In this document: positions 33,135 to 38,707 of the stretch, piece after piece
How the letters are laid out: the number at the start of each line of letters is the position of its first letter
How positions within the stretch are numbered: the stretch's first letter is position 1
Assembly (NCBI GenBank): GCA_020402865.1
Contig: JADBYT010000010.1
Span: 186,001-250,000 of the forward strand
Source: Bacteroidota bacterium
Lineage (GTDB): Bacteria; Bacteroidota; Bacteroidia; Palsa-965
Direction: 5' to 3'
DNA length: 64,000 nucleotides
Position numbers and translations under genes: made by a program
The notes under the pieces: model-generated
Seen by the model: only the letters and a program-made list of their open reading frames with translations
What the model was told of the DNA's origin: nothing
The model's database searches: none

Positions 33135-33142
33135 TATATTTG
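33135..33142 (+). promoter_or_regulatory. -7 element TATATTTG of the DUF2723 gene
   Basis: Exact TAnnTTTG match ending 4 nt before ATG 33146 and 10 nt before ATG 33152; short-leader or leaderless start. Confidence 0.45.
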
Positions 33143-33145
33143 TGC

Positions 33146-36100
33146 ATGTCAATGACAGTTTACCCTCACCAGCGACTGCACCGGTTTACGGCCTGGATTG
33201 TATTTCTGATTGCTTTTATTGTTTACGCACGCACGGTAGAAGACACAGCCAGTTTCTGGGATTGCGGTGAATACATTGCCTGTGCATGGGGCATTGAAGT
33301 GGGGCATCCGCCCGGAGCGCCGCTGTTTCTGCTACTTGGACGCCTTGCGGGTTTGCTTTCATTCGGCAATACCGGGCATGTGGCATTACTCATCAATCTG
33401 CTTTCGGCGCTGGCCAGTGCATTTACTATATTCTTTTTGTATCTGAGCATTGCAGCACTTGCCCGCAAAGCGGCCGGTAAACGCGCAGACCGTTATCAAA
33501 CTCCGCTGCTACAATACCTGCCGCTGCTGGCGGGCGCAATTGGGGCACTCTCGTTTGCATTTACCGATACGTTCTGGTTCTCGGCAGTGGAGGGTGAAGT
33601 GTATGCGCTTTCGTCGCTGTTTACGGCTATTGTGGTGTGGGGCATGCTGCGCTGGGAAGCAGTGGCCGGCGAACCCGGCGCTGATCGCTGGTTGGTGTTT
33701 ATTGCTTACATGATCGGCCTTTCGGTTGGCGTGCATCTGCTTAACCTGCTTTGTATTCCGGCGCTGGTATTTATCTGGTATTTCAGAACCTACACCCATG
33801 TTACACGACTTGGTCTGCTGCTGGCGGGAAGTGCCTCACTGCTGCTGCTGGGGGGGATTCAGAATGTGCTGATTCCGGGTGTGGTGAACTTGTGCGGAAA
33901 AACAGAATTGTTTTTTGTGAATGAGCTGAACTTACCGTTCAACAGTGGCACCATTTTTTATTTTGCACTGCTTACTGTTTTGCTTGCAGGTGGCATCCTT
34001 TTTACACAGCTGCGCAGATACAGGGTGCTTAACACTTCGTTGCTTGCACTTACTACGCTGCTCATCGGCTATTCGAGTTTCTTTATTCTCATTATCCGCG
34101 CGCAGGCTTCACCGCCAATTAACGAAGGCAACACCTCCAATGCCGTAAGCCTGCTTTCGTACCTCAACCGCGAGCAATACGGCGACTGGCCGCTGCTTTA
34201 CGGACGCACCTACGCCACTCCGCTTGATGCGGAAAAGCCGTGGGTTGACGCAAATCCTGTTTATGCGCGCGATGAACGCACAGGGAAATATATCATCAGT
34301 TTCAGCGGAAAAGCAGCGGTAGCCAACTACGACGACCGCGCCAGCATGTTTTTCCCGCGTATGTGGAGCTCCGGACACGCCCAGGCGTACAAAAGTTTTA
34401 CGGGTGAACCTGCAGACAGTGCAGATGTAAGTTTAACCGGCAATGGCGGCGAGTATGTGAAAATTCCGTCTCAGGGACAAAACATGAAATACTTCTGGGG
34501 ACAGCAGATTGGCTGGATGTACACGCGCTATTTCATGTGGAATTTTGTGGGCCGACAAAACGACCACGCCAGCAGTGGTAATGATGCCGAAGGCAATGTG
34601 CGCTGGAGTATGCGCAAAGATGACGTGCGCAAAGGCCAACACTTTATGCCGCAGGCGCAGCGAAATAACAAAGCGTCAAATTTCTATTTCTACATTCCGC
34701 TGCTGCTGGGCTTGCTGGGTATTGTTTGGCATTTCAAAGTTTCCTCCCGCGATGGATTTATCACACTGCTGCTGTTTTTGTTTACCGGACTTGCCATTGC
34801 AGTTTATCTGAACATGACGCCGTGGCAGCCGCGCGAACGTGACTATGCGTTTGTGGGTTCTTTTTATGCCTGGGCATTCTGGATCGGGCTTGGTGTGTTT
34901 CCGTTGTTCGAATGGATACACACAATGCTGAAAAAAATTCCGGCTGCATTAAGCGTTACATTAGTTGTATCGATGCTTTCGCCGGTAATTTTGCTGCAAC
35001 AGAATTACGACGATCATAACCGATCGGGACGCACCGCAGCGCGCGATTTTGCCATCAACCTGCTCGAATCGTGCGCTGAGAATGCGATATTAATTACGTA
35101 TGCCGACAACGACACATTTACGCTCTGGTTTGCGCAGGAAGTGCTTGGCATACGACGCGATGTGCGGGTAGTGTGCCTCTCGCTGCTGCAAAACGACTGG
35201 TACATCGACCAGATGAAACGCCGGCAATATACTTCGGCGCCGCTGCCTATCAGCATGCAGCACCACCACTACAAACAAGGCAAGCGCGATTACGTAAATA
35301 TTGATCCGCGCACCATACTTCCCATGCGGGCCGACAGCATTATTGCCTACGCCACCAGCACACGTAAAGGCGAATTTCGCATTGACAGTTACGGCGACAC
35401 AAGCAGCATCATTCCGGCTCAGGCGGCCTACCTGCCTGTAAACAAAACTGCGTATGCAAAGCAGGCCGGCCTCAGCACATCAGAAATGCAGGCGGCACAC
35501 GATACTATTGTGTGGTCATTCTCAAACAGCTACATGATGAAAGACCAGCTTGTGGTGCTTGACATTCTTGCGCATCACAACTGGGAGCGGCCGGTGTACT
35601 TTGCACCCGGCATGCCCGGTTCGGCCTACAGCGGATTGAACGACTATCTGCAAGCCGAAGGGCTGGCGTGGCGCCTCACTCCTTTCTTTCATCCCGACGC
35701 CGACCGCAACCTGACGACTGATCCGGCCTGTGCCACTTCAAAAACATTTACACTGTTTCAACAGAAGTTTGGCTGGGGCGGTTTGAAAAACGAACGCGTG
35801 TATGCCGACGAAACCGTGGAACGCATGTTTTGCTCTCCCATGCGCAGCATGTGTGCCGTGGCTGCCGAGGTGCTGATGCGTGAAAACAAACCGGAACAGG
35901 CCGCTCAACTTATTGCACAATGCATAGAAGAAATTCCGCACACACAAACCCCGCCCGATGAATACTGGACTGCCCTTACTGCTGTGGCGTTTGCAAGCGG
36001 CAACGATGCGCTGGCTGAAAAAATGACACGTATTTCGCTCACGCACGCCGTAGAAAGTTTGCGCTGGTATTCGTTTATGCACATCCCGCCTTATGATCGT

Positions 36101-36280
36101 TATGAGCAGCAGGCTACGTTGCAGAAATTATACGAGCTTGCGCTGCTTGCGGGCAACGAAAAACTGGCCGATGAAATTTACACTACGGCTGCGCCGTATG
36201 TGGAGCTTGGGTTACCGCAGGAGATGACGCCGGGAGTAGATAGTTTGCGGGATAAGGATAGTTTGGATTCGTTGAGGTAG
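33146..36280 (+). CDS. DUF2723-family membrane protein (protein O-mannosyltransferase-like)
   Basis: 1044 aa from ATG 33146 (ATG 33152 also possible). The N-terminal part has multiple membrane helices with the DUF2723 signature DTASFWDCGEYI followed by HPPGAPLFLLLGR, where acidic residues in the first loop are typical of GT-C glycosyltransferases. Further helices extend to about residue 620, then a large soluble domain with TPR-like helices at the end. Members are thought to move sugars from polyprenyl donors onto exported proteins, fitting Bacteroidota O-glycosylation (family knowledge, not shown here). Convergent with recG across the tandem-repeat region. Confidence 0.85.
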   Translation: MSMTVYPHQRLHRFTAWIVFLIAFIVYARTVEDTASFWDCGEYIACAWGIEVGHPPGAPLFLLLGRLAGLLSFGNTGHVALLINLLSALASAFTIFFLYLSIAALARKAAGKRADRYQTPLLQYLPLLAGAIGALSFAFTDTFWFSAVEGEVYALSSLFTAIVVWGMLRWEAVAGEPGADRWLVFIAYMIGLSVGVHLLNLLCIPALVFIWYFRTYTHVTRLGLLLAGSASLLLLGGIQNVLIPGVVNLCGKTELFFVNELNLPFNSGTIFYFALLTVLLAGGILFTQLRRYRVLNTSLLALTTLLIGYSSFFILIIRAQASPPINEGNTSNAVSLLSYLNREQYGDWPLLYGRTYATPLDAEKPWVDANPVYARDERTGKYIISFSGKAAVANYDDRASMFFPRMWSSGHAQAYKSFTGEPADSADVSLTGNGGEYVKIPSQGQNMKYFWGQQIGWMYTRYFMWNFVGRQNDHASSGNDAEGNVRWSMRKDDVRKGQHFMPQAQRNNKASNFYFYIPLLLGLLGIVWHFKVSSRDGFITLLLFLFTGLAIAVYLNMTPWQPRERDYAFVGSFYAWAFWIGLGVFPLFEWIHTMLKKIPAALSVTLVVSMLSPVILLQQNYDDHNRSGRTAARDFAINLLESCAENAILITYADNDTFTLWFAQEVLGIRRDVRVVCLSLLQNDWYIDQMKRRQYTSAPLPISMQHHHYKQGKRDYVNIDPRTILPMRADSIIAYATSTRKGEFRIDSYGDTSSIIPAQAAYLPVNKTAYAKQAGLSTSEMQAAHDTIVWSFSNSYMMKDQLVVLDILAHHNWERPVYFAPGMPGSAYSGLNDYLQAEGLAWRLTPFFHPDADRNLTTDPACATSKTFTLFQQKFGWGGLKNERVYADETVERMFCSPMRSMCAVAAEVLMRENKPEQAAQLIAQCIEEIPHTQTPPDEYWTALTAVAFASGNDALAEKMTRISLTHAVESLRWYSFMHIPPYDRYEQQATLQKLYELALLAGNEKLADEIYTTAAPYVELGLPQEMTPGVDSLRDKDSLDSLR

Positions 36281-36361
36281 TTTTTTTTGTGTGTGTTTGG
36301 GGTAGGATGTTTTTTTTGGGGGGGGCGACGGATTATGTTGGCGGCTGTATTGTGGAGTTTT

Positions 36362-36530
36362 TACTATAGCGCTGTACTTTGGTGCTGTACTTTGGCGGTG
36401 TACTATGGCACTGTACTATGGCGCTGTACTATGGCGCTGTACTATGGCGCGGTACTATGGCGCTGTACTATGGCGCTGTACTATGGCACTGTACTATGGC
36501 GCTGTACTATGGCACTGTACTATGGCGCGA
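36362..36530 (+). repeat. Tandem repeat: 13 copies of a 13-bp unit (TACTATGGCGCTG)
   Basis: Units begin at 36362, 36375, 36388 and every 13 bp to 36518. The first three and the last are most diverged; the central copies differ at one or two positions (GCGCTG, GCACTG, GCGCGG). Because 13 is not a multiple of 3 and no unit creates a stop, all three forward frames stay open and each reads the same 13-residue cycle (ALYYGAVLWRCTM). No promoter or start context supports translation. It fills most of the convergent gap 36281-36601; before it lie only homopolymer runs of T and G. Confidence 0.85.
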
Positions 36531-36576
36531 GCATCGCGCCATTACGGGGATCTGCTGTGGTGCGAGCATCGCGCCA
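36524..36576. repeat. Two copies of a GC-rich hairpin beside the tandem repeat
   Basis: GGCGCGA-GCA-TCGCGCC (36524-36540) is a perfect 7-bp hairpin. A second copy, GGTGCGA-GCA-TCGCGCC (36559-36575), differs by one base in the left arm and keeps a G-T pair. They adjoin the last 13-bp unit, on the 3' side of both flanking genes. Confidence 0.65.
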
Positions 36577-36601
36577 GGAGTGGGGCTTGCGGGATATTTC
36601 C

Positions 36602-38707
36602 TCAGGAGATTTTGCTCCAGTTTACGGAGTCGTTGTGCTCGCGGTTGAGTTCATCGCGAAGGGGATGATTGGCGGGTGAAGCAAGCTGCGGGTCGGCTTC
36701 GAGAATTTCGGAGGCTGCTATGCGGGCATGCTGGAGGATGGGGCCGTCTTTGGTTAAGTCGGCGAGACGCAGGCCGAGTGTGCCGCTCTGGCGGGTGCCT
36801 TCAAGATCACCGGGGCCGCGAAGCTGAAGGTCCACTTCGGCAATTTCGAAACCATCGTTGGTGCGCACCATCGTGTCCATGCGTAGTTTCGATTCTTTGC
36901 CCAGCTTGGGGCCGCTCATGAGTATGCACCACGATTGCTCTGCACCACGGCCCACACGGCCACGCAACTGATGCAGCTGCGAAAGGCCAAAACGCTCGGC
37001 ACTTTCAATCACCATCACCGACGCGTTGGGCACATTTACGCCTACTTCAATTACCGTAGTGGCCACCATGATCTGCGTTTCGCCACGCACAAAACGCTGC
37101 ATCTCGAAATCCTTGTCGGCCGGTTTCATTTTTCCATGCACAATGCTTACGCGGAATTCGGGCAGCGGAAATGCGCGCGAAATGCTTTCGTAGCCATCCA
37201 TCAGGTCTTTATAGTCCATCTTTTCCGACTCCTGAATGAGCGGATAAACTACATAAATCTGACGGCCTTTGGCTATTTCCTCGCGCATAAATCCAAACAA
37301 CCGTTCGCGTGCCGAGTCGTAAAAATGCAGTGTGCGAATGGGTTTTCGGCCTGCAGGCAATTCGTCGATTACTGATGTATCAAGATCGCCGTAGAGTGTC
37401 ATGGCCAGCGTACGCGGAATAGGCGTGGCTGTCATAACCAGAATATGCGGAGGGTGCACATTTTTACGCCAGAGTTTGGAACGCTGCTCCACCCCAAAGC
37501 GATGCTGCTCGTCGATGACCACAAGGCCGAGGTTGGCAAACTGCACTTCGTCTTCAATGAGCGCATGCGTGCCTACGAGTATGTGCATTTCGCCGGCGCG
37601 CAGAGCGGCGTGTAACTGCCTTCGTGCGGCCGTTTTGGTGCTGCCGGTGAGCAAGCCTATCTGCACCGGCATATCGCCTGTAAGTTGTGTGAGTGTGAGA
37701 AAATGCTGCTGCGCGAGAATTTCAGTGGGAGCCATGAGGCAGGCCTGAAAGCCATTGTCGTTTGCGAGCAGCATACACATGAGCGCCACCACAGTTTTAC
37801 CGCTGCCCACATCGCCCTGCAGCAAACGGTTCATCTGCTTACCGCTGCCCATATCGCCGCGTATTTCTCGTATTACACGTTTCTGCGCATTGGTAAGCGG
37901 AAACGGCAGGTGCTGTTCAAAAAACGTATTGAACATGTCGCCCACGCGGTTAAACACATGCCCCTGCACATTATCCTGCCGCAAATGCCGCACCCGCAGC
38001 AGCTTGATTTGGATGAAGAGAAATTCTTCAAACTTGATCCGCTTCTGCGCACGTTCGAGCTTTTTTAAATCAGTCGGAAAATGTATTTCACGCAGCGCCT
38101 CCTCGCGGCCGGGCAGCTTGTACTTTTCAAGCAGCGAAGCGGGCAGAATTTCAGGAATTTTACCCGCAATCTGAGGCACCAGTACTTTGAGCAGTTTCAA
38201 AATTCCTTTTGAATCCAGCCCTTTCATTTTAGTTTTCTCAGTTGACGAATACATGGGCTGCAGGGCACTTGCACGCTTCAGCAACTCTTCACTCACCTCT
38301 TCCACTTCGGGGTGCGCAATATTGATGCGGCCATTGTACACCGAAGGCTTTCCAAACACAATGTATTCTTTCCCCGGCTTGTACTTCCCGTCGAGCCACT
38401 TCAATCCCTGAAACCACACCAGTTCCACTGATCCATGTGCATCCGTAAGATGTGCCACCAACCGACGGCCCTGCTTCTGCCCCACAATTTCGGCATGCAG
38501 AATTTGACCGCGCAACTGCACGTAAGGCAAATCAGCATTAATCTCGTTGGTGCGGTAAAACCGTGTGCGGTCCACATAACGGTAAGGATACCAGCGCAGC
38601 AAATCGCCATAGCTGGCAATGCTGAGTTCTGATTTAAGCAGCTTGGCCCTTTCGGGTCCCACGCCTTTTAAATACTCAACCGGATTGTCGAGAAAACTGT
38701 TATCCAC
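36602..38707 (-). CDS. recG: ATP-dependent DNA helicase RecG
   Basis: 701 aa from GTG 38707. N-terminal wedge/OB domain (about 60-170), then helicase motifs: GDVGSGKTVVAL (Walker A), VIDEQHRFGVEQR (DEQH box), TATPIPRTLAM, and ERFGLSQLHQLRGRVGRG (motif VI). RecG drives fork regression and branch migration. A -7-like box TATTTTCG ends 6 nt before the GTG on the minus strand. Divergent from the SRPBCC gene. Confidence 0.95.
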   Translation of the reverse strand: MDNSFLDNPVEYLKGVGPERAKLLKSELSIASYGDLLRWYPYRYVDRTRFYRTNEINADLPYVQLRGQILHAEIVGQKQGRRLVAHLTDAHGSVELVWFQGLKWLDGKYKPGKEYIVFGKPSVYNGRINIAHPEVEEVSEELLKRASALQPMYSSTEKTKMKGLDSKGILKLLKVLVPQIAGKIPEILPASLLEKYKLPGREEALREIHFPTDLKKLERAQKRIKFEEFLFIQIKLLRVRHLRQDNVQGHVFNRVGDMFNTFFEQHLPFPLTNAQKRVIREIRGDMGSGKQMNRLLQGDVGSGKTVVALMCMLLANDNGFQACLMAPTEILAQQHFLTLTQLTGDMPVQIGLLTGSTKTAARRQLHAALRAGEMHILVGTHALIEDEVQFANLGLVVIDEQHRFGVEQRSKLWRKNVHPPHILVMTATPIPRTLAMTLYGDLDTSVIDELPAGRKPIRTLHFYDSARERLFGFMREEIAKGRQIYVVYPLIQESEKMDYKDLMDGYESISRAFPLPEFRVSIVHGKMKPADKDFEMQRFVRGETQIMVATTVIEVGVNVPNASVMVIESAERFGLSQLHQLRGRVGRGAEQSWCILMSGPKLGKESKLRMDTMVRTNDGFEIAEVDLQLRGPGDLEGTRQSGTLGLRLADLTKDGPILQHARIAASEILEADPQLASPANHPLRDELNREHNDSVNWSKIS

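Follow-up and report, generated by a model that had tools for sequence, protein, structure and literature searches.

A 13-bp minisatellite ending in a REP-like hairpin between convergent genes of a Bacteroidota bacterium

A contiguous array of thirteen 13-bp units, the last of which runs into a REP-like hairpin, was identified between two convergent genes in the window, a 64,000-nucleotide stretch of a 4.89-Mb Bacteroidota genome (C10:186001–250000 on the 307-kb contig C10; Cn are contig labels). This array is non-coding DNA and no gene. Probably it is a minisatellite produced by tandem duplication at the hairpin's edge, and most likely it has no function of its own.

The array occupies positions 36362–36530 on the plus strand and is composed of 13 units with the consensus TACTATGGCGCTG, from which five units do not deviate, five deviate by one mismatch, and three by two; the first three units are the most diverged. 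TRF called it at 36362–36528 with a period of 13, 12.8 copies, 90% matches, no indels, and a score of 271, as against a best score of 59 in 20 local shuffles, and at most four unit matches were found anywhere in 100 dinucleotide-shuffled versions of the window. The array is hence far beyond chance, and the thirteen copies reported in a first-pass annotation of this DNA were confirmed. The same annotation had used the label minisatellite, which is right for a head-to-tail array of short units, and had placed the array between the 3' ends of two convergent genes. These are a TMEM260-like gene (PF11028) upstream (33140–36280, plus strand) and the RecG helicase gene downstream (36602–38707, minus strand). 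Further arrays of the same unit, a possibility raised in that annotation, were not found, since a two-unit pattern allowing up to three mismatches gave 11 matches over the whole genome, all of them at this locus. The pattern matched nothing in viral_contigs and no plasmid match was obtained at an E-value of 1e-5, so that a virus or plasmid origin was rejected. A known RNA family was likewise rejected because the window had no Rfam match at the gathering threshold, as was an intrinsic terminator or sigma-70-like promoter, since neither a terminator-like site nor such a promoter was found in 36200–36700.

The first-pass description held for the array itself but missed the hairpin that ends it. 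The array has no clean end at 36530. Its last unit forms the first arm of a hairpin, TGGCGCGAGCATCGCGCCA, located at 36523–36541 on the minus strand, whose outer arm is the end of that unit. Folded as single-stranded DNA, this hairpin has 9 pairs and a 3-nt loop, plus one flanking pair, with a free energy of −11.5 kcal/mol (z = −4.74). A second, degenerate copy, TGGTGCGAGCATCGCGCCA, lies at 36558–36576 on the minus strand and folds weakly (−4.6 kcal/mol, z = −1.42). According to an excerpt of PMC6006769, the basal stem of a REP is fully paired over at least 7 bp and closes on a loop of 2–5 nt, and the hairpin at 36523–36541 lies within these bounds. Members of the GTAG super-family carry GTAG or GTGG within 0–2 nt 5' of the stem. 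At this position on the minus strand, where REP elements have GTAG, the window hairpin has the tag GTAA (36542–36545); it was therefore named REP-like and not a canonical GTAG REP. The sister locus C15:123004 carries GTAG itself. Dispersed and mostly extragenic copies, another property of REPs, were observed as 13 hairpin loci in the genome, with a spurious ORF overlapping the loci on C1 and C13. The two hairpins of the window share one orientation and accordingly do not form a REPIN, in which two inverted REPs constitute one mobile unit.

The 13 loci were obtained by pattern searches of the genome in which clusters were counted once, and other hairpin variants may have escaped the patterns used. 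They are C1:56272, C2:326614, C8:47899, C8:170509–170729, C9:44052–44116, C10:222524 (the window), C12:136322, C13:1072, C15:123004, C15:124231, C19:167483, C19:224101–224154, and C28:295. Excluded before counting were C21:5218 and C24:99518, at which no tagged hairpin of the family was seen, and all two-mismatch matches other than C13:1072. The C1 hairpin is tagless and was oriented by its array, and the tag at C13 is poor. Eight of the 13 loci adjoin an array with four or more copies; the period is 13 at five of them (C1, both C8 loci, C10, and C15:123004), 20 at C13, 19 at C19:224139, and 28/53 at C28. No array reaching four copies accompanies the hairpins at C12, C15:124231, and C19:167483. 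Near the C9 hairpins an 18-bp unit, read by eye, is repeated about three times, and 2.9 copies of a 26-bp unit lie approximately 80 bp from the hairpin at C2:326k; neither was counted as abutting.

The units of the five 13-bp arrays are specific to their loci (TACTATGGCGCTG, ATCTTAGCTTGCG, TGTGTCGTGGGGC, TGTGCGGTGGGGC, and ATTTGGGTGGTGA), with TGTGTCGTGGGGC and TGTGCGGTGGGGC close to each other. In six of seven arrays examined, every unit repeats the final 3–7 bases of the hairpin arm. The contiguous match between the arm and the unit one period away is 4 bases long at C10, C1, and C8:170k, 3 at C15:123004, 6 at C13, and 7 at C19, and the overlap at C8:47k is a single base. These matches indicate that a unit typically consists of the outer edge of the hairpin and its flank. 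Variants run in blocks within the arrays and the edges are the more diverged part; such block-wise variants and diverged ends are what slippage or unequal exchange usually leaves. Two 26-bp arrays, at C8:1–176 (the contig begins inside it) and C2:326464–326538, have similar units, agreeing by eye in about 19 of 26 letters with one of them reversed. A long degenerate 32-bp array of approximately 10 copies, rich in TTCGCTCT, was also seen at C2:87291–87869.

The association between period 13 and the hairpin was evaluated by TRF on 1,656,105 bases of the genome, comprising the window and 80 stretches. This gave 26 rows with a unit of at least 8 bp and at least four copies, among which 13 was the commonest period (five rows), and all five of the 13-bp arrays adjoin a hairpin. 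The stretches with C1, both C8 loci, C13, and C28 had been sampled for their hairpins and the window for its array, while contigs C15, C8, C10, C1, C13, and C28, and not C2, had been picked for a known hairpin. Since several stretches were chosen in this way, the fair part of the comparison lies in the remaining ones, in which TRF called no 13-bp array lacking a hairpin beside it. The array at C15:122836, which lies outside the hairpin-chosen stretches, had been called by TRF before the palindrome beside it, which carries a true GTAG tag, was recognised. As a control, tagged hairpins were scanned in other genomes of many phyla, giving at least 111 loci with 114 hairpins, several of the loci coming from one genome. 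Among the matches listed, 5 of the 114 hairpins adjoin any TRF row, 1 of the 114 adjoins an array with four or more copies, and none has a period-13 array beside it. The hairpin alone is therefore not sufficient, and arrays as a general companion of such hairpins in bacteria were rejected. Two hairpins in other bacteria adjoin arrays whose units contain a hairpin arm (20 bp × 4.7 copies and 30 bp × 2.9 copies).

The array is confined to this species among the genomes compared. RecG is present in all 59 genomes searched, and a convergent TMEM260-like gene follows recG in six congeneric or confamilial genomes (G001, G003, G004, G005, G006, and G007). TRF found no array in the recG gap of these six genomes, G002 being left out. 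None of the 11 other family genomes searched contains the exact hairpin core, which occurs in 2 of 59 genomes, namely this one and a distant one. Two congeners, read over 360,000 bases, and two further relatives, read over 40,000 bases, yielded no 13-bp array, these amounts of sequence being too small to expect many. In the congener G004, the first 280 bases of the gap after the recG stop appear by eye to hold a MITE-like short element with inverted terminal repeats of approximately 39 bp.

These observations are best explained by a sequence of events starting from a hairpin like the repetitive extragenic palindromes (REPs) served by RAYT/TnpA_REP, one that sits between recG and the TMEM260-like gene in this species. 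The future unit would comprise a few bases of the outer stem and the adjacent flank; DNA synthesis would halt in or at the hairpin, and slippage would duplicate this edge stretch once. Later slippage or unequal exchange could then multiply and homogenise the units. We infer that replication slippage was the likeliest motor and that the hairpin was the cause of the array rather than its neighbour. Slippage gives no explanation for the recurrence of period 13 with unlike sequences.

Other readings of the array are much less probable. The first-pass annotation had hinted at coding, on the grounds that the unit is open in three forward frames and would encode a 13-residue cycle. This openness holds for the consensus unit, which has no stop on the plus strand in any phase, but not for copy 1 (TACTATAGCGCTG), in which TAG occurs at 36367–36369 in the third phase. 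Apart from copy 1, ORFs of 130, 89, and 87 codons do cross the array in the three plus frames, and its minus strand is closed in every frame. However, such openness is unremarkable because it is shared by 49% of 100,000 random 13-mers of the same base composition. Among the four other 13-bp arrays, two (C15:122836 and C8:47758) contain stops in every same-strand frame, where the sister arrays of a protein-coding repeat should stay open. The coding repeat was thus rejected, and the probability that the cycle is translated in three frames is negligible. The same annotation had considered a structural spacer that blocks colliding polymerases. A spacer or transcription barrier between convergent genes would suit the position of four of the five 13-bp arrays and the general preference of REPs for 3' ends (PMC3733652), but the fifth array (C15:122836) lies between divergent gene starts. 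The 13-bp units share no sequence, no terminator-like site was found in 36200–36700, and the convergent gap of the six relatives does without an array; the barrier is hence unsupported and improbable. A minisatellite that arose by chance and merely happens to lie beside a hairpin would not be out of place in a genome in which 21 of the 26 TRF rows have periods other than 13, but it would leave unexplained why every 13-bp array found adjoins a hairpin and why the hairpin edge is contained in the units of nearly all arrays examined, and we regard it as quite improbable. It is highly improbable that the copy number is an artefact of assembly. A 19-bp unit stands in six copies at the end of contig C19 and again at the end of contig C7, and contigs C8 and C28 begin in arrays, as would be expected where assembly fails at repeats; the window array, however, lies inside a 307-kb contig and is anchored by variant units. 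Its exact copy number alone is unsafe.

A transposase could also have built the array, which we consider the main rival explanation but an unlikely one. According to this explanation, a RAYT would bind the tagged single-stranded REP, cut next to the hairpin and again at a distance of about one unit, and rejoin the ends, so that the stem edge and flank would be duplicated and repetition would build the array on the non-tag side. TnpA_REP can cut and join single-stranded REP DNA 5' or 3' of the hairpin, as stated in an excerpt of PMC8266576. Three Y1_Tnp genes were found in the genome. The protein encoded at C8:50596, 2.7 kb from a hairpin-plus-array locus, passes the NCBIfam model of REP-associated tyrosine transposases with 97.6 bits (cut-off 80), while those at C19:223758 and on C2 scored 63.3 and 62.6 bits on this same model (REP_Tyr_transpos), below the cut-off. 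The RAYT-like gene on C19 has a Y1_Tnp domain over the Pfam cut-off and two hairpins directly 3' of it, followed by at least six copies of the 19-bp unit to the contig end (C19:223.5–224.3k). Six copies of this unit also occupy the end of C7, which indicates that the assembly breaks inside the 19-bp array. In six of seven cases, the array and the tag or tag-like bases stand on opposite sides of the hairpin, as this explanation predicts; C28, with its array on the tag side, is the exception, the tagless C1 was left out, and as evidence of polarity six of seven is weak. Against a transposase, the hairpin of the window carries GTAA, and the enzymes studied in PMC8266576 cut less well or not at all when GTAG is altered. 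Furthermore, relatives without these hairpins also have Y1_Tnp, which is present in 11 of 12 genomes and was therefore rejected as a discriminator from relatives, and tandem duplication by such enzymes was not seen in the literature examined. The bolder version, in which the RAYT of this lineage repeatedly duplicates the REP edge with a fixed flank and makes its REPs minisatellite factories with a step of 13, is doubtful; if it were true, repeated exposure of single strands would leave a one-sided G+T bias beside the hairpins.

A zone rich in G+T was located on the array side, at 36142–36505 on the plus strand, with a peak of 0.75 over 200 bp, extending into the array from the upstream gene's end. 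The skewed strand is the one that reads array, hairpin, and TACGGG in this order. At 11 loci, the G+T content of the 100–200 bases before the hairpin ranged from 0.53 to 0.82 and reached at least 0.70 at six, the side at C1 being set by its array, as compared with 0.30% of 16,481 background windows at or above 0.70. For 101 hairpins of other bacteria, the average over 200 bases was 0.517 and the largest value 0.655. One-sided G+T bias was also noted at C8:170422–171239, C15:123971–124497, C1:56172–56585, and C28:1–601, the bias at C8 extending into the coding end of a gene, and equal skew occurs at gene ends without a hairpin at C10:72.3k, C28:51.8k, and C28:95.3k. A general G+T skew downstream of genes was rejected, as it is not present on average. 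Separately, third-position G is raised and C lowered over the last 10–20 codons of genes that face a convergent neighbour. For 364 genes of a genome-wide sample with an opposed downstream neighbour, G3 was 0.315 and C3 was 0.212 in the final 10 codons, as against approximately 0.23 and 0.30 further inside these genes. The 697 codirectional genes exhibited no G3 rise of that size, and G004 has a similar rise before opposed neighbours.

The birth of bacterial minisatellites is mostly deduced in retrospect. The present genome holds several independent arrays on one hairpin type, by which the seed and the step length become visible and testable. Short arrays are thereby linked to REP/RAYT biology, and they are candidate typing loci for the species. 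If RAYT should make the arrays, domesticated REP transposases would gain a new local product. Searches of an open-access literature collection turned up no account of short minisatellites attached to REPs.

The hairpins resemble GTAG REPs and REPtrons of the short-hairpin type, such as the REP of Stenotrophomonas maltophilia and its TnpA_REP (PMC8266576, PMC3733652), in that an intergenic hairpin with a stem of approximately 8–9 bp, a 3-nt loop, and a one-sided tag occurs in dispersed copies, and a RAYT-like gene is accompanied by hairpins; for S. maltophilia, the REP has been described as a perfect palindrome of 8 bp with a 3-nt loop (PMC8266576). They differ from GTAG REPs in numbering only 13 loci, in a tag that is mostly GTAA and GTAG at one locus, and in that their edges bear short 13-bp minisatellites. 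As in the REP/REPIN clusters of Pseudomonas fluorescens SBW25, REP loci are amplified in tandem; for those clusters PMC3116915 gives a unit consisting of a whole REP or REPIN with its flanks, tens to more than 100 bp long, whereas the unit here is composed of the last few hairpin bases and approximately 9–13 bp of flank. As in bacterial minisatellites or VNTRs, short units are arranged head to tail with a homogeneous core and diverged edges; unlike in these, the arrays are repeatedly tied to one hairpin type, and share a period while their unit sequences are unlike.
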